A DNA stretch of 48,243 nt from Mesoaciditoga sp. (GTDB taxonomy: Bacteria; Thermotogota; Thermotogae; Mesoaciditogales; Mesoaciditogaceae). The notes below the pieces were generated by a model. The model had not been told where the DNA came from. It worked only from the letters and a program-made list of their open reading frames with translations, and did no database searches. The position numbers were made by a program, and so were the translations under genes. The stretch covers positions 1 to 48,243 of the forward strand of contig PNIW01000033.1 of the NCBI GenBank assembly GCA_002878315.1. The letters run 5' to 3'. Each line of letters opens with the position of its first letter. Position 1 is the first letter of the stretch. Shown piece by piece: positions 17,489-35,178 of the stretch.

Positions 17489-18040
17489 TTACTTTGCAAG
17501 TCCTTTTATTATTATAAGTTCGATGGTATCGGGAGACATTTGTCCCTCCGGAAGAAGAGCAGAAGATCCCACTATATCAGTTATGGCGCGCGCGTATTCT
17601 TTTGAATTTGTGTCGATCTCGGTCGAAAGCACATCGGCTACTCTGTTGACAAAACCGTCGTACTCAGTTTTGATATGCTCCCAACTTGATCCTGTCTCGG
17701 AATAGAATCTTGTCTTTTCTCTTTCTATGAGTCTAAGAGATTGTCTATCATTTCTCAGAAAATCTATGTACGCTCTCAAGAAAGCCTTCGCCTTCCTGAC
17801 GTATTTATTGTCATTTTCCGATATTCCAAAAACTTTGTCTTCAAGTTTGTGGAAAGCCTCATCCCACGTAGCCTTGAAGAGTTCTTCCTTGCTGGGGAAG
17901 TAATAATATATCAAAGGCTTTTTGACATTGGCGAGTTTTGCTATATCTTCCATTGAAACATCGGCGTAAGACTTTGAAGAAAAGGCCATCTTTGCGGCTT
18001 CTAATATGCTTTCTCTGACTCCATTCTGTCTTACCGTCAT
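17489..18040 (-). CDS. TetR/AcrR-family transcriptional regulator
   Basis: The N-terminal helix-turn-helix spans about residues 8-55 (SILEAAKMAF ... VSMEDIAKLANVKKPLIYYYFPSKEELF), textbook TetR. The C-terminal ligand-binding domain is helical and not recognisable by ligand. ATG 18040 is preferred over GTG 18046, because AAAGAGG sits 8 nt upstream of the former. The gene is divergent from prmA across a compact control region that contains an 18-bp inverted repeat overlapping its own predicted transcription start, so autorepression is likely. A similar site precedes the radical SAM gene at 30783. Confidence 0.93.
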   Translation of the reverse strand: MTVRQNGVRESILEAAKMAFSSKSYADVSMEDIAKLANVKKPLIYYYFPSKEELFKATWDEAFHKLEDKVFGISENDNKYVRKAKAFLRAYIDFLRNDRQSLRLIEREKTRFYSETGSSWEHIKTEYDGFVNRVADVLSTEIDTNSKEYARAITDIVGSSALLPEGQMSPDTIELIIIKGLAK

Positions 18041-18060
18041 ATTCACAACCTCTTTCTGAC

Positions 18061-18078
18061 TTTGACCTTCCAGTCAAA
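18061..18078. promoter_or_regulatory. Inverted repeat TTTGAC-N6-GTCAAA, candidate TetR operator
   Basis: Perfect 6-bp arms at 18061-18066 and 18073-18078 with a 6-nt spacer, the usual size of a TetR-family site. It covers the -35 of the prmA promoter and the predicted start of the tetR transcript, so a bound repressor would block both directions. Confidence 0.6.
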
Positions 18079-18091
18079 AAAATGATATCAT
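18062..18091 (+). promoter_or_regulatory. prmA promoter with extended -10
   Basis: TTGACC at 18062-18067, an 18-nt spacer, and TGA-TATCAT with the hexamer at 18086-18091. Predicted start is near 18098. The -10 lies in the palindrome ATGATATCAT (18082-18091) shared with the opposite promoter. Confidence 0.6.
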
Positions 18092-18110
18092 ATTTATTGT
18101 AAAAATTCAA
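18082..18110 (-). promoter_or_regulatory. tetR promoter with extended -10
   Basis: Read on the minus strand: TTGAAT (18110-18105), a 17-nt spacer, and TGA-TATCAT with the hexamer at 18087-18082. Predicted start is near 18075, inside the inverted repeat. It shares the palindromic -10 with the prmA promoter. Confidence 0.6.
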
Positions 18111-28338: not shown

Positions 28339-28373
28339 CATGTAAATACAATCTGCATTTTGAGGTGTGTAAA

Positions 28374-29528
28374 TTGAAAAAGTTTGAAATTTTCCTTTTG
28401 CTCTCTTCATTTGTGGCCGTTGTTTTAATTCTTTCCGGATGTATGAAGGTTCAGTCGGGTTTCTCTTCGATAGACGCTGTAAAAAGTTTCGATCTTGTGA
28501 ATCCCCAAAATCCTATGTCATTCGGACAGATATATTCTTCTCCGGCTATTTTCAATGGAAAGATATTTATAGGCGGTCAGCGTGGGCTTTTTGTCATTTC
28601 ATCTACCGCTTCATGGTGCTATTCAAGCAATGCGGCAGTATATTCATCTCCTTCAATAGATGCGACGAATGATATTGTATTTGCCGGCAACAATGAAGGT
28701 CAATTGATTTACGCTTCATATCCGTTTACAAATTACAAAACAATGATGGTCTCGTATTATCCTTTGATATCATCGCCTCTTATCATCAATGGAAATATTT
28801 ATGTCATTGATAATTACGGTAACATCTTCAAAATAAGTGAAAGTGGAATGGAAAAGACCTATCTTTCCACTATCGGCGGAGGAGGAAGCGGCATATGGGC
28901 AAGTCCTGTGACGAATGGAGTCAATCTTTTTGTCGGTTCGGATAACGGTATCTTTTATGCCGTGAGCCTAAATTCAGGAAATGTAGTTTGGCAGTACCAG
29001 ACTGGGGGGCCGATTTACGGAACGGCAGCCATCGGAGTAAATGGCAATATTTATGTTGGGTCGGATGGGCTTTATTCTTTCACTCAAAATGGCGCTTTGA
29101 GATGGGAAAATCCTTTAGATGGATCTCAAATTTACGCAAGTCCTGTTATATCGCAAAATGGAATTATCTACGTTGGAACTACAATGGGTGAATTTTACGC
29201 CGTAAATTCTCAAAATGGTCAGACTATCTGGAGCATAAATCTCGGCACGCCAGAAGGCGGAATACTATCTTCGGCACTAATTGGAAATGATGAAATTTAC
29301 GTTGAGTCGGGATACAATTTTTATGAGATAGATCCATCAAATGGAGATATTTTAAGTTATGTAGATGTGGGTTATAACGTCGAATCAAATCCGGCTTTTT
29401 ACAACGGCAAGATATATTTTGGATGCGACAATGGGCGGTTTTACGAGATCTCGATATCTGGTTTTATGGCCGCAGGAGGATGGCCTATGTTCATGCACGA
29501 TATTTACCATACAGGGAGACAATCATGA
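28374..29528 (+). CDS. Beta-propeller (PQQ-like repeat) lipoprotein
   Basis: Secreted lipoprotein. The signal peptide ends in a lipobox LILSGC with the modified cysteine at residue 23. The mature protein is built of repeats of the form ASP-V--NG-IYVGS--G--YA(V)-NG---W, typical of PQQ-like eight-bladed propellers such as BamB. Each blade has the G-x-x-Y/F-A-ff-G-x-x-W tail. It starts at TTG 28374, 6 nt after GAGGTG. No enzyme residues are evident, so a binding or scaffold role at the cell surface is likely. It overlaps the next gene by ATGA, so the two lipoproteins are made together. Confidence 0.9.
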   Translation: MKKFEIFLLLSSFVAVVLILSGCMKVQSGFSSIDAVKSFDLVNPQNPMSFGQIYSSPAIFNGKIFIGGQRGLFVISSTASWCYSSNAAVYSSPSIDATNDIVFAGNNEGQLIYASYPFTNYKTMMVSYYPLISSPLIINGNIYVIDNYGNIFKISESGMEKTYLSTIGGGGSGIWASPVTNGVNLFVGSDNGIFYAVSLNSGNVVWQYQTGGPIYGTAAIGVNGNIYVGSDGLYSFTQNGALRWENPLDGSQIYASPVISQNGIIYVGTTMGEFYAVNSQNGQTIWSINLGTPEGGILSSALIGNDEIYVESGYNFYEIDPSNGDILSYVDVGYNVESNPAFYNGKIYFGCDNGRFYEISISGFMAAGGWPMFMHDIYHTGRQS

Positions 29529-30691
29529 AAAAATCAGTTCTTGCAATTTCAATTGTGATTTTGGCCATTTTGCTTTCGGGTTGCATGTTAAGAATGAATC
29601 CTATTCAAAATACCGCTCAAACTCGTCCAGCACTTGGAAACATATTCATGCCACGTGATTTTCTCGAACAATGGTTTAAGAGTGTAAGGGTCTTTCATTC
29701 AGATACAGTCCTGCCCCAATTCATCGCTTCTCAAAATGAAATAGCCTCGACCCAGCAGGTACTTCTCAGTCCGGTTCTTTCATCTTTGCCAAGCGATTAC
29801 AATTCAAATCTTTTGACGTTTTCTAATGGTGGAAATATACCGAACGTTGGAGATCAGGGATATAACAACACATGCTGGGCATTTGCAACCGTTGAATCTC
29901 TCGAAAGCGCTATGAAAGTCCAACTTGGAAACGCTGAAATTCAGTCGATCTATCCATTCATATCCAATCCTTCCTCTCCGACTCTTTCGACTCAGTTTGT
30001 CTCTTACAACGATGCTAACTGGAATATAACAGGCAATCAAAGTCTTTCTTATCAGGAAACAAACGAAGATGAAGGTGGAAATTTGTTCTTTTCCTTTTAT
30101 AACCTTATAAGACGCGGTGTCCCTCTTTCTACCGACTTTCCTTATTACGGATATTATTTGAATTCTCAAAAAGATAAAGTTCCATATCCTTTCATTTTAT
30201 GGGATCCGGCAAATGATTCATGGCCATACCATCTTGTAAAGCCTGTTTCAACGATTGTGATAAACCCATGGCAATTTTCAAGTTATACAACCTTTATAAA
30301 CACGATAAAAAGTGCCATAATTGAATATGGTGGACTTGCGGTCCAGTTGGATGTCTATTCAGATTTTGATACATTTCAGTTGAATGAGCCGGCCGGTCCC
30401 AATGGCTGGGTATATCCAGGTCCATCTCCTTCGGCACAATTTGAAGGGGGACATGCCGTTCTTCTTGTAGGATGGGATGATAACTGGACATATGACGGCA
30501 TTGACTACGGGCCAGTTTGGATTCTCGAAAACTCATGGGGATCTTCGTGGGGAGATAATGGCTTCTGGAGACAGCCAATGATAACAAAGACCGAATTTGA
30601 AAATTTAAGTGCCGCTCCATTGTGGAAAATAGAGGTAAACAGCATGTATGTCCCGTACTTTGGATCGATCAGTTCTAACTTTGCCTATTGA
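29525..30691 (+). CDS. Papain-like (C1A) cysteine protease lipoprotein
   Basis: Secreted peptidase. The signal peptide ends in the lipobox LLSGC (C20), so the protein is anchored outside the cytoplasmic membrane. The catalytic set is complete: Q111 in VGDQGYNN, C117 in TCWAFATVESLE, H310 in GGHAVLLVGWDD, N336 in LENSWGSSWGDNGFW. About 80 residues between the anchor and the catalytic domain could be a propeptide or spacer. It starts at ATG 29525 after GGGAGAC. Partner of the upstream propeller lipoprotein. Distinct from the cytosolic PepC. Confidence 0.92.
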   Translation: MKKSVLAISIVILAILLSGCMLRMNPIQNTAQTRPALGNIFMPRDFLEQWFKSVRVFHSDTVLPQFIASQNEIASTQQVLLSPVLSSLPSDYNSNLLTFSNGGNIPNVGDQGYNNTCWAFATVESLESAMKVQLGNAEIQSIYPFISNPSSPTLSTQFVSYNDANWNITGNQSLSYQETNEDEGGNLFFSFYNLIRRGVPLSTDFPYYGYYLNSQKDKVPYPFILWDPANDSWPYHLVKPVSTIVINPWQFSSYTTFINTIKSAIIEYGGLAVQLDVYSDFDTFQLNEPAGPNGWVYPGPSPSAQFEGGHAVLLVGWDDNWTYDGIDYGPVWILENSWGSSWGDNGFWRQPMITKTEFENLSAAPLWKIEVNSMYVPYFGSISSNFAY

Positions 30692-30716
30692 CAAAAGGGA
30701 AAAATTTTTGTACAAT
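30688..30716 (+). promoter_or_regulatory. Strong promoter of the radical SAM gene
   Basis: Consensus TTGACA (30688-30693), 17 nt, TACAAT (30711-30716); start predicted near 30723. The TGA stop of the protease gene is inside the -35. Confidence 0.8.
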
Positions 30717-30731
30717 GAACTTGAGTTTAAT

Positions 30732-30749
30732 TTTGACCGGTCGGTAAAA
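30732..30749. promoter_or_regulatory. Candidate TetR-type operator downstream of the promoter
   Basis: TTTGACCGGTCGGTAAAA holds the near-palindrome TTT-n-ACCG-GT-CGGT-n-AAA at about +10 to +27. It matches the 18-bp inverted repeat at 18061-18078 in 13 of 18 positions when aligned end to end, including TTTGACC and the GT-n-AAA end. Confidence 0.5.
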
Positions 30750-30782
30750 TTTTCGGCTGACAGGGAAAGGAGTATGATCTGA

Positions 30783-32336
30783 ATGGGAATAGGCAGTGAA
30801 ATCAAGGATAAGGCTACAAAGATGGCTATCAATGCAGTTCTTGGAGGGTATATAGATTATATAATCAAAGATCCGGAAGCCAATTTCGACAAAGCCATTG
30901 AGTCTCTAAAAAAATTAGAGCATACTATAGGAGGAACAGATAATCTTTCCAAATTCGCAGACTGGGTTCAGAAGAATCCGGGATCAAGGCAATGGCTTAT
31001 AAACCTTTTTAAGAAAGATAAGCATGTAGTCAAGACATTCTTTACAAACTTCCTCGTAAATGTAAACCTCGGATGGCTTAAATACAATAAAGAGGAAACG
31101 ATAAAAAAGAACGGATTTGCCGCTCCCTACACGATTCTCATAAGCCCTACGATGAGGTGTAACCTTAACTGCATAGGCTGTTATGCAAGCGAGTATTCAC
31201 GGCAGGATGATATGCCAATCGAACTTGTGGACAGTATAATAACACAAGGAAAGGCCATAGGAACGTACTTTTACACTATTCTTGGTGGAGAACCATTTGT
31301 TAGATGGGCAGAACTTTATCCTCTTATAAAAAAACATAATGACGCCCTTTTCATGATCTTCACAAATTCAACCTTTATAACTGATAAAGTTGCCGATCAG
31401 ATCAGAGAACTTGGAAATGTTTATCCTGTTCTTAGCGTAAATGGCTGGGAAGAAGAGACCGATTACATAAGAGGAAAGGGTGTCTATGCAAAAGTTCTCG
31501 CGGCAGCAGATAGGTTAAGGGAAAGAGGAATCATCTTCGGAAATTCGTTTGTCTTCATGAGGACGAATTTTGAACAGTTAACTTCTGACGAACTTTACGA
31601 TTTCTGGATAGAGAAAGGTGCCTTCTTCTCGTGGCTATTCCTCTTCATGCCGGTCGGGAGAGATCCGGAAGTCGATCTTATGCCTCTTCCTTCTCAAAGA
31701 AAAGCGATGGGCGATTTTGTAAGATCTCTGAGAGCAAGAAAGCCGTACTTCCTTATGGATTTCTGGAATGACGCTCCTTCTGTAGGTGGATGTATAGCCG
31801 GAGGAAGAAGATATCTCCACATAAACAGTGAAGGATATGCCGAACCCTGTATATTTACACATTTCGCAACAGATAACATAAAGGAAAAATCTCTCGTTGA
31901 GATTTTGCAGTCTCCGTTCCTTGCAGATATAAGATTCCACCAGCCGCATTCAGATAATCTTCTTACACCGTGTATGATAATAGACAATCCATGGATTTTA
32001 AGAGAAGTTGTCGCAAAACACCATGCGAAGTCCACAGATAAAGGCGCGTCTGAACTGGTTGTTACAAAACTTGTGCCTGCGCTCGATGAATATTCGAAAG
32101 GAATTCACAAAGAACTCGATCCTGTCTGGGAAAAGGAGTTTACGAAGAATATAGAAGAGATAAAGCAAAAAGGATCCTCCCATGGAGAAGGACTTGACAG
32201 ATTGTGGTTCCAGAATAATCCCGACAAGATCTTCGAATGGGCGAAAAAGTATCCATTCATTTTGGATTACGATTTCCTTCAGGCTGCAATAAAAGAAGTC
32301 AAAAACCTTGAAAAAACAAGCGCAGTAGGAAAGTAA
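30783..32336 (+). CDS. Radical SAM protein with SPASM-like auxiliary cysteines
   Basis: Radical SAM enzyme of 517 residues. About 110 helical N-terminal residues of unknown role precede the radical SAM core with C126-C130-C133 (CNLNCIGCY) and the GGEP motif. C-terminal cysteines C337 (GGCIAGG), C356 (AEPCIF) and C397 (TPCMI) could ligate an auxiliary cluster, as in SPASM/Twitch proteins. The substrate is unknown. ATG 30783 lies 10 nt after AAAGGAG. The gene has its own strong promoter and a TetR-like operator, and it stands alone before larE. A lipid or peptide substrate is possible; nothing in the sequence decides. Confidence 0.85.
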   Translation: MGIGSEIKDKATKMAINAVLGGYIDYIIKDPEANFDKAIESLKKLEHTIGGTDNLSKFADWVQKNPGSRQWLINLFKKDKHVVKTFFTNFLVNVNLGWLKYNKEETIKKNGFAAPYTILISPTMRCNLNCIGCYASEYSRQDDMPIELVDSIITQGKAIGTYFYTILGGEPFVRWAELYPLIKKHNDALFMIFTNSTFITDKVADQIRELGNVYPVLSVNGWEEETDYIRGKGVYAKVLAAADRLRERGIIFGNSFVFMRTNFEQLTSDELYDFWIEKGAFFSWLFLFMPVGRDPEVDLMPLPSQRKAMGDFVRSLRARKPYFLMDFWNDAPSVGGCIAGGRRYLHINSEGYAEPCIFTHFATDNIKEKSLVEILQSPFLADIRFHQPHSDNLLTPCMIIDNPWILREVVAKHHAKSTDKGASELVVTKLVPALDEYSKGIHKELDPVWEKEFTKNIEEIKQKGSSHGEGLDRLWFQNNPDKIFEWAKKYPFILDYDFLQAAIKEVKNLEKTSAVGK

Positions 32337-32405
32337 AAGACAATTTATAAAAATAAGGCCCAGTAAAAACGGGGCTTTAAAATATAATATAAAGGATGTG
32401 CTGAA

Positions 32406-33215
32406 ATGGAAAAAGAAGAGAAAATAGAGTATTTAAGATCTTCGCTGATAAAGATGAAAAGTGTTGTAGTGGCTTTTTCTGCTGGGGTCGATAGCACTTT
32501 TCTTCTTAAATTCGCGCTTGACACTCTTGGAAGAGACAATGTTCTGGCCGTTACGGTCTCTTCACCTATAAGGTTTGAAAATGAAAGTTCTCAGGCTGTC
32601 AAAATTGCAAAAGAGTTGAATGTGAGGCATGTAATAATAGATCTGGATGAAACAAAGGATGGGAACTTCGCTAAAAATGATCCTTTAAGATGTTATTATT
32701 GCAAATACCTGACCTTTTCAAAATTAAAGGAATTTGCGCGGAAAGATGGAATCGAGTTCGTAATCGATGGCACCAATTACGATGATGTATCGAAGGATTA
32801 CCGGCCCGGACTCAAAGCCCTTTCAGAGCTCGGCATCTTCAGTCCTCTCAAAGATGCGCAATTGACAAAAAAAGAGATAAGAGAACTTTCAAAGCAGATG
32901 AATCTTCCGACATGGGATAAATTTCCGCAGACATGTCTTGCGACACGTTTTCCTTATGGTATGGAAATAACTATGGAGAGACTTAAAAAAGTTTCAAAGA
33001 TAGAATCTTATCTTGAGACGTTGGGTCTTAAAGTTCACAGGGCAAGATATCACGATGACAGGACTTTGAGAATAGAGGTGCTGCCGGAAGACTTTTCAAA
33101 GTTAATGGATAGCAAGAATGAAATAATAATGATGGCAAAAGAAATGGGGTTTAATTACATCACTCTCGATCTTGAAGGATATAGGAGCGGAAGTTTAAAC
33201 GAGGTGTTAAAATGA
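32406..33215 (+). CDS. larE: LarE, sulfur insertion enzyme for the nickel-pincer nucleotide
   Basis: ATP-pyrophosphatase that adenylates the pyridinium biscarboxylate mononucleotide and inserts sulfur, making the thioacid cofactor precursor. The PP-loop is SAGVDS at 25-30. Three cysteines are present: C96 and C99 in RCYYCK and C177 in QTCLATRFPYG. The single-cysteine type sacrifices the equivalent of C177; three conserved cysteines suggest the variant that uses an iron-sulfur cluster as sulfur carrier. First gene of larE-larB-larC, with ATGA overlap to larB. Confidence 0.95.
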   Translation: MEKEEKIEYLRSSLIKMKSVVVAFSAGVDSTFLLKFALDTLGRDNVLAVTVSSPIRFENESSQAVKIAKELNVRHVIIDLDETKDGNFAKNDPLRCYYCKYLTFSKLKEFARKDGIEFVIDGTNYDDVSKDYRPGLKALSELGIFSPLKDAQLTKKEIRELSKQMNLPTWDKFPQTCLATRFPYGMEITMERLKKVSKIESYLETLGLKVHRARYHDDRTLRIEVLPEDFSKLMDSKNEIIMMAKEMGFNYITLDLEGYRSGSLNEVLK

Positions 33216-33964
33216 TAGGCAAGGATTTGAAAAACGTACTTGAGAATCTTAAATCTGGAAAGATAAGTGTTGAAAAGGCAATCGAGATTATCTTAGATCC
33301 CGGCTACGATGACATAGATTTTGCGCGTGTAGATGTTGATAGATCGAAAAGAAGAGATTTTCCAGAAGTCATCTTTTGCGAGGGTAAAAGCGATGAACAG
33401 GTCGTAAAAATCTTTGAAAAATTGGGAAAATATTCTCCGAATTTGCTCGGTACGAGAGCAAATCGATCAACATTTGAGATGGTAAAAGAAATCTTTCCTC
33501 AGGCCCAGTACAACCCCATTGGAAAGACCATAACCATAGAAAGGGAAAAACCTGCTGAAAAGGGTTCCATAATGGTAATCAGTGCTGGGACATCTGATCT
33601 TCCGGTTTTGGAAGAATGTTTTGAAACGGCACGCATTATGGGGAATAAAGTGTCAAGACTTGTGGATGTGGGAGTTGCAGGAATTCATAGAATTCTTTAC
33701 AATGTGGATCTTCTCGATAGTGCAAGGGTTATAATTGTAATAGCCGGAATGGATGGAGCATTGCCAAGCGTTGTTGCTGGCCTTGTTAAAAAACCTGTTA
33801 TAGCCGTTCCTACAAGCGTTGGGTATGGTGCCAACTTCAACGGTCTTGCACCGCTTTTGACCATGCTAAACAACTGCTCGGGTGGTATTGGTGTTGTAAA
33901 TATAGACAACGGTTTTGGGGCTGCCTACCTTGCAAATCTTATAAACAAAATCGGAGAGGAGTGA
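33212..33964 (+). CDS. larB: LarB, pyridinium-3,5-biscarboxylic acid mononucleotide synthase
   Basis: Carboxylates and hydrolyses nicotinic acid adenine dinucleotide, the first step to the nickel-pincer cofactor. An N-terminal helical region of about 100 residues (ARVDVDRSKRRDFPEVIFCEGKS region) precedes a C-terminal domain related to PurE (AIRC), with VISAGTSDLP, GVAGIHRI and VVAGMDGALPSV-type motifs (here IVIAGMDGALPS). The length of 250 residues is normal. It sits between larE and larC. Confidence 0.95.
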   Translation: MIGKDLKNVLENLKSGKISVEKAIEIILDPGYDDIDFARVDVDRSKRRDFPEVIFCEGKSDEQVVKIFEKLGKYSPNLLGTRANRSTFEMVKEIFPQAQYNPIGKTITIEREKPAEKGSIMVISAGTSDLPVLEECFETARIMGNKVSRLVDVGVAGIHRILYNVDLLDSARVIIVIAGMDGALPSVVAGLVKKPVIAVPTSVGYGANFNGLAPLLTMLNNCSGGIGVVNIDNGFGAAYLANLINKIGEE

Positions 33965-33969
33965 TCTTT

Positions 33970-35178
33970 GTGGACGCTTATTTTGAGATGTTTTCGGGCA
34001 TAAGCGGAAATATGACTCTTGGGGCTCTGATAGATCTCGGACTTGATCCCGAACTTTTGAAATCCGAACTTGGGAAATTACATTTAGAAGACGAGTACGA
34101 GATAATAACACAGAAAGTTTCAAGGTCTCACATAGGTGGAACTTACGTTGATGTGAAATTGCACCATCACGATCATGATAAAGATCACGAGCATCATGAT
34201 CACGATCATGAACATGAGCATCATGGAAGAAATTTGGAAGACATAAACAGAATAATAGATTCAAGTGCGCTGTCGAAAAATGTGAAGGAAAAAAGTAAGG
34301 CCATCTTTATGAACCTTGCGAAGGCCGAGGCAAAAGTTCACAGAACGGAGATCAACAAGATCCATTTCCACGAAGTGGGGGCAGTTGATGCGATCGTCGA
34401 CATAGTAGGTTCTGTCATAGGATTTGAACTCTTGGAAATTGATAGAATATACGCCTCCGCTATAAACACAGGTCAGGGATATGTAATGGCCGCGCACGGA
34501 AAGTTGCCCGTACCGGCGCCTGCTACGGCCGAGTTGCTAAAGAATGTTCCGATATATTCAAGTGGTACGGAAAAAGAACTTACAACACCAACGGGCGCTG
34601 CCATAATAACAACCTTAGCCTCTTATTTTGGTCCGAGACCTCTCATGAGCGTGGAGAAGATCGGGTACGGTGCAGGCACATATGAGATAGAGATACCGAA
34701 TCTCTTGAGAATAAGCCTTGGAAAAGTGGAAAGAATTTCCAGAAAAGTGAAGGTTATAGAAACGAATATCGACGATATGAATCCGCAGTTTTACGAATCA
34801 ATAATGGAAAGATTGTTTCACGAAGGCGCTTTAGACGTTTATTTTACACCCATTCAGATGAAAAAGAATCGCCCGGCCGTCAAGATAAGCGTTATTACCG
34901 AAGAACAGAACGTCGAAAGGATAAATGCCATACTTTTGAAGGAAACAACAACTTTAGGAGTCAGGATCTTTGACGTTGAAAGGGAAACTCTCGAAAGAGA
35001 GACAAAAGAGGTAAACACAAAATGGGGAAAGGTAAGGGTAAAGGTAGGATTGCTCAACGGGAAAGCGGTCAACTTTTCTCCAGAATATGAAGATTGTAAA
35101 AAGATATCATCTGATTTCGGCGTACCAATCAAAGAAGTTTATATGAACGTTTATTCGGCTCTTGAATTTAAAGAGTGA
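33970..35178 (+). CDS. larC: LarC, nickel insertion protein (single unsplit ORF)
   Basis: CTP-dependent nickel-inserting cyclometallase that completes the nickel-pincer nucleotide. The N-terminal domain has FSGISGNM; a histidine-rich metal-binding stretch follows at about residues 63-86 with alternating His and Asp. HFHEVGAVDAIVDIVG then comes, and the C-terminal half has ETNIDDMNPQ, the LarC2 signature. In some lactobacilli LarC needs a frameshift to make the full protein; here it is one open frame. The start at GTG 33970 fits AGGAGTGATC upstream; GTG 33961 is the alternative. No larA follows directly. Confidence 0.95.
   Translation: MDAYFEMFSGISGNMTLGALIDLGLDPELLKSELGKLHLEDEYEIITQKVSRSHIGGTYVDVKLHHHDHDKDHEHHDHDHEHEHHGRNLEDINRIIDSSALSKNVKEKSKAIFMNLAKAEAKVHRTEINKIHFHEVGAVDAIVDIVGSVIGFELLEIDRIYASAINTGQGYVMAAHGKLPVPAPATAELLKNVPIYSSGTEKELTTPTGAAIITTLASYFGPRPLMSVEKIGYGAGTYEIEIPNLLRISLGKVERISRKVKVIETNIDDMNPQFYESIMERLFHEGALDVYFTPIQMKKNRPAVKISVITEEQNVERINAILLKETTTLGVRIFDVERETLERETKEVNTKWGKVRVKVGLLNGKAVNFSPEYEDCKKISSDFGVPIKEVYMNVYSALEFKE

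Follow-up and report, generated by a model that had tools for sequence, protein, structure and literature searches.

The closest described counterparts of the system considered here are local repressors such as TetR and QacR, with which it shares an autoregulated TetR-family protein (autoregulation being a prediction here), a palindrome placed 3' of the -10 element and one enzyme target. In those systems the target is usually adjacent to the regulator gene, whereas here the two loci are 13 kb apart on opposite strands, each has one operator of its own and the target encodes a radical SAM enzyme. A second point of comparison is the TetR-family protein FadR of Thermus thermophilus, also a thermophile, with the consensus TTRNACYNRGTNYAA (PMC5597230). 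Its half-site is like that of the operator in the window (the whole 48,243-nucleotide stretch of DNA that was analysed), with ACY/RGT flanked by TT/AA, but one base separates ACY from RGT in the FadR consensus and four separate them in the window operator. FadR acts on many fatty-acid degradation genes, whereas the window TetR is predicted to act on essentially two genes. The acyl-CoA-responsive regulators FasR and AibR are like the window TetR in fold, although the identity is only about 20%. A literature search, with RegPrecise and subscription journals outside its scope, found no account of a tetR/radical SAM regulon.

In the 1.77-Mb genome G000, from the family Mesoaciditogaceae (f1), the window makes up contig C80. 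Among named organisms Athalassotoga saccharophila NAS-01 (G003) is the closest, with 98% identity in both proteins. The features of the two loci are collected in Table 1.

Table 1. Features of the tetR and radical SAM loci in the window
Feature	Position	Strand	Details
TetR-family regulator	17489-18040	-	PF00440, E=1.7e-17, 63 bits (cut-off 24)
tetR operator (putative autoregulation)	18061-18078	.	TTTGACCTTCCAGTCAAA; same motif 5' of tetR in 10/10 family genomes
tetR promoter	18082-18110	-	-35 TTGAAT 18110-18105, -10 TATCAT 18087-18082
Radical SAM promoter	30688-30716	+	-35 TTGACA 30688-30693, 17-bp spacer, -10 TACAAT 30711-30716
Radical SAM operator	30732-30749	.	TTTgACCG-gt-CGGTaAAA palindrome, about +9 to +26
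Radical SAM/SPASM enzyme	30783-32336	+	517 aa; Pfam PF04055, PF13186
Terminator-like hairpin	32354-32379	+	Fold -12.4 kcal/mol, z -2.2; without a strong U tract

Two palindromic sites and their promoters in Mesoaciditogaceae

The 18-bp site 5' of the radical SAM gene reads TTTGACCGGTCGGTAAAA in the window and is to be compared with TTTGACCTTCCAGTCAAA 5' of tetR. The preliminary description had given the coordinates of both and an identity of 13 of 18 positions, and these are exact on re-reading. The differences lie mid-site, and the identity becomes 14 of 18 once one site is reverse-complemented. The inference of a shared operator that had been drawn from this identity is supported through the relatives described below, but not by the identity itself, which is insufficient as proof because it is at chance level: 12 places in the window reach at least 13/18 in either orientation, compared with 6.85 expected from Markov-simulated windows.

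The regions 5' of both genes were read in all ten available family genomes. The family consensus TTKACYGnnYGGTMAA was observed 5' of the radical SAM gene in every one of them and 5' of the unlinked tetR in every one as well. The respective sites are TTGACCGGTCGGTAAA and TTGACTGGAAGGTCAA in the genome of the window, TTGACCGAACGGTAAA and TTGACCGATCGGTAAA in G004, and TTGACCGAACGGTAAA and TTTACCGATCGGTAAA in G007. The sequence flanking the radical SAM operator diverges within the family while the palindrome stays. The tetR sites in the genus of the window are degenerate, agreeing with the consensus at 12-13 of its 14 positions, and only the two operators of Table 1 score at least 13/14 in 48 kb.

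The promoter that had been claimed 5' of the radical SAM gene is present there, and a TTGACA...TA(C/G/A)AAT promoter is kept at this gene in 10/10 family genomes. The TGATATCAT-type -10 element of tetR is likewise conserved across the family. The start of tetR is probably the ATG at 18040, which is the conserved start in G001-G003, and not the in-frame upstream GTG at 18046. The distance from the -10 element to the operator centre is 22-24 bp at the radical SAM gene (10/10 family genomes) and 8-12 bp at tetR (all ten), with 12 bp at tetR in the window.

If transcription starts about 7 bp after the -10 element, the radical SAM operator covers about +9 to +26, nearly identical to the +10 to +27 over which an elongation roadblock had previously been proposed. 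The roadblock is the less likely mode of action, because the operator would sit within the initiation footprint of the polymerase. Steric block of initiation or of promoter escape is the simplest and likelier reading, and the constant operator spacing in ten genomes agrees with it.

Gene linkage and motif occurrence across Thermotogae

In families f2, f4, f6, f8, f9, f10 and f11 the TetR orthologue comes immediately after the radical SAM orthologue and in the same orientation, a linkage that is read directly from the sequences and is commoner than the unlinked arrangement among Thermotogae families. The same palindrome, typically TTTACCGACCGGTAAGTAAA or TTGACTGAACGGTCAATAAA, lies just 5' of the radical SAM-tetR operon in these linked families; f4 and f8 have a weaker version, and in the f11 genome G050 this stretch is masked. 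Family f7 has the reverse gene order, with a more diverged TetR gene ahead of the radical SAM gene, and in most f7 genomes the operator stands at the head of that operon. In f3 the two genes lie on different contigs or at a distance of about 3 kb, and the site is again found at both; 5' of tetR it reads TTTACCGAACGGTCAA in G023, TTTACCAAACGGTCAA in G011 and TTGACCTTTCGGTAAA in G017. Taken over the orthologues, the site upstream of the radical SAM gene is present in 10/10 members of the Mesoaciditogaceae and in most of the class. Three genomes (G013, G019 and G024) have no close orthologue of either the radical SAM gene or tetR, a case of co-absence. No TetR of the same kind was found within 3 kb of the enzyme in 80 loci from f1 and f3 members and from outside Thermotogae.

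The f3 loci L015 and L016 show a different layout at the radical SAM promoter, which is flanked or overlapped by two palindromes, one of them over the -10 element; elsewhere there is a single downstream site.

The sites of the two genes predict each other. Matrix scans covered the 48-kb window, and genome-wide scans were made with patterns. When the matrix was derived from the radical SAM sites in other genera alone, the radical SAM operator of the window ranked first (23.3 bits) and the tetR operator second (14.3 bits), the third-best place scoring 10.3 bits. With a matrix derived only from tetR sites of other genera the order was the same (20.4 and 15.8 bits), followed by a third-best place at 14.1 bits. 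A degenerate 16-bp pattern matched only the radical SAM and tetR sites in G001 (96% complete), and the pattern scan of A. saccharophila returned the same two sites plus one place inside another gene. The 20-bp pattern TTKACYGNNYGGTMARTMAA has 29 exact matches in 61 genomes, and every one of them heads a radical SAM or tetR gene or operon. The near-absence of other sites is a direct observation. Other pattern matches in family genomes, for example in an ABC transporter gene, are mostly intragenic and unshared between species, and were rejected as targets.

Assignment of the regulator and extent of the regulon

In its recognition helix (NVKKPLIYYYF) the window TetR is nearly identical to the operon TetRs (GVRKALIYYYF), and V(K/R)K(P/S/A)LIYYYF is common to linked and unlinked TetRs. 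A PF00440 search of G004 (99% complete), which is blind to any non-TetR protein recognising the same palindrome, returned one TetR-family protein, the orthologue of the window TetR, in a genome where both sites are present. On the basis of the helix likeness and this single TetR, the site was assigned to the regulator at 17489-18040. A domain scan of the open reading frames in 28365-35178 found no regulator among the neighbours of the radical SAM gene. We take the site at 30732-30749 to be a true operator. The earlier proposal that this TetR regulates the radical SAM gene agrees with the cross-prediction, the linkage in relatives and the recognition helix, and the TetR very probably represses both itself and the radical SAM gene.

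Palindromes of the ACCG/CGGT type are common TetR targets, and the likeness of the two sites might be generic, with another TetR-family protein binding the radical SAM site. The genome of the window, which is only 84% complete, has two further TetR loci, one on C96 and one encoding a double-TetR protein on C21, and it could encode yet another regulator in the part not sequenced. We nevertheless consider a different regulator very unlikely: the other TetRs of this genome carry different recognition helices (KVGKGTLYTYF and NIGNASFYQYF), G004 has both sites yet a single TetR-family protein, the sites of the two genes predict each other across genera, and radical SAM-tetR operons elsewhere bear the same site. 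The probability is close to nil that the two sites are alike by chance, owing to an AT-rich leader, and that the match has no regulatory role. Identity of 13/18 alone is expected about seven times per window, but the site is kept in ten family genomes at a fixed 22-24 bp from the -10 element while its flanks have diverged, and exact matches of the class-wide pattern occur only at radical SAM and tetR genes.

The double-TetR protein on C21 (L003, 463-1686) has 407 residues and two complete TetR_N domains in one frame, and its gene lies directly 3' of a 3-oxoacyl-ACP synthase III-like gene. It is kept as a protein of 407-435 aa in G001-G003, of the same genus, and a similar domain pair is found at a contig end in G006.

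Binding of the window TetR would define a small regulon, as the preliminary description had suggested, and indeed a very small one, with tetR and the radical SAM gene as its only members plus one weak candidate; both genes carry the motif, which is conserved between species and seldom occurs at other places. It is unlikely that the regulon is larger and takes in the DUF2229/HGD-D pair (C36 of G000) or, through read-through from the radical SAM promoter, larE-larB-larC. The sequence TTGACTTTATGGTAAA lies just 5' of the DUF2229 gene, and perfect palindromes are found there in G004 and G007, but only the right half is kept across the family, where it coincides with the -10 element TAAAAT, and the left half-site is lost in G001, G005 and G008. 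As a third target this gene is therefore weak, and it was set aside. The start of larE is 70 bp past the radical SAM stop, yet a terminator-like hairpin lies between the two genes, with a cleaner one at the same place in A. saccharophila; read-through control of larE-larB-larC is possible.

Several features of these neighbourhoods may be recorded in their own right. The larE-larB-larC genes (nickel-pincer cofactor genes, 32406-35178) come after the radical SAM gene and in the same orientation. The DUF2229/HGD-D genes are in tandem at L069 452-1492 (C36), with a partial TetR-like palindrome 5' of the first. The ether-lipid enzymes PlsA/Ger belong to an activase/dehydratase group related to DUF2229/HGD-D, and by this analogy a lipid link of the DUF2229/HGD-D genes is possible. 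Papain-family (C1) cysteine peptidases are encoded in the window (29423-30691) and at L069 1595-2818, one of them with a weak dockerin-like match.

The proposed circuit and the radical SAM enzyme

The structural model of the window TetR (pLDDT 88) is all-helical and matches TetR structures. Its fold neighbours include AibR with isovaleryl-CoA, FasR, DesT and 6azh (a putative fatty acid regulator). Folds of the TetR family are all alike, and the acyl-CoA-binding neighbours of the model are a hint and no more as to the type of ligand. FasR is also the best NCBIfam match, although the scores are below the equivalog cut-offs for both FasR (54.9 of 330 bits) and FadR (28.8 of 200 bits).

From these analyses we infer protein-DNA binding, repression and a ligand, repression being taken from the common practice of the TetR family. 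The TetR would bind the radical SAM operator and its own operator as a dimer on TTKACYGnnYGGTMAA, repressing both genes. At the radical SAM promoter it would cover about +9 to +26 and block open-complex formation or promoter escape, and on its own operator it would cover roughly the tetR start site. A small molecule, plausibly an acyl-CoA or another hydrophobic ligand, would release it. In most Thermotogae families a single operator would control both genes as one operon; where the genes are apart with an operator at each, as in Mesoaciditogaceae and f3, the circuit would persist without linkage. On the sequence evidence we regard this joint model, with both genes repressed through both operators, ligand release and a circuit kept without linkage, as highly probable.

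In the radical SAM enzyme the radical SAM domain is preceded by a helical N-terminal region (about residues 1-110), and the protein reached no NCBIfam cut-off. The nearest folds to its model (pLDDT 87) are SuiB, anSME and SkfB, which are peptide-modifying enzymes. Of the Thermotogae families examined, only f5 lacks the enzyme, close relatives of which are found in Clostridium, Actinobacteria, Anaerolineae, Deltaproteobacteria and Woesearchaeota. This distribution is similar to the one reported for Mss, which synthesises membrane-spanning lipids in bacteria (PMC11868695, PMC13274423), and Thermotogales produce membrane-spanning lipids (PMC8788747). Mss is a relative of the archaeal radical SAM enzyme Tes, and the window enzyme is likened to Mss by distribution. 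The profile match to Tes (7TOL) is weak (E=3e-5) and confined to the radical SAM core, and Tes is absent from the 50 best folds of the enzyme model. The link to the membrane-spanning lipid synthase is only a lead, and that the enzyme is the Thermotogae Mss, with the TetR as its dedicated lipid-precursor-sensing repressor, is a tentative idea that we hold to be rather improbable.

The analysis assigns a predicted regulator and operator to a widespread and uncharacterised radical SAM/SPASM enzyme, and offers a clean case from nature in which a regulator has stayed connected with the one target that is clear, though the two are unlinked. Because the circuit appears to be class-wide, the ligand of the TetR would be a direct clue to the substrate of the enzyme. 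Should the enzyme prove to be the Thermotogae Mss, the TetR would be the first transcriptional regulator known for the formation of membrane-spanning lipids in bacteria, kept class-wide despite lost linkage, and were the enzyme to make such lipids, the circuit would reveal how these bacteria control their monolayer membranes.
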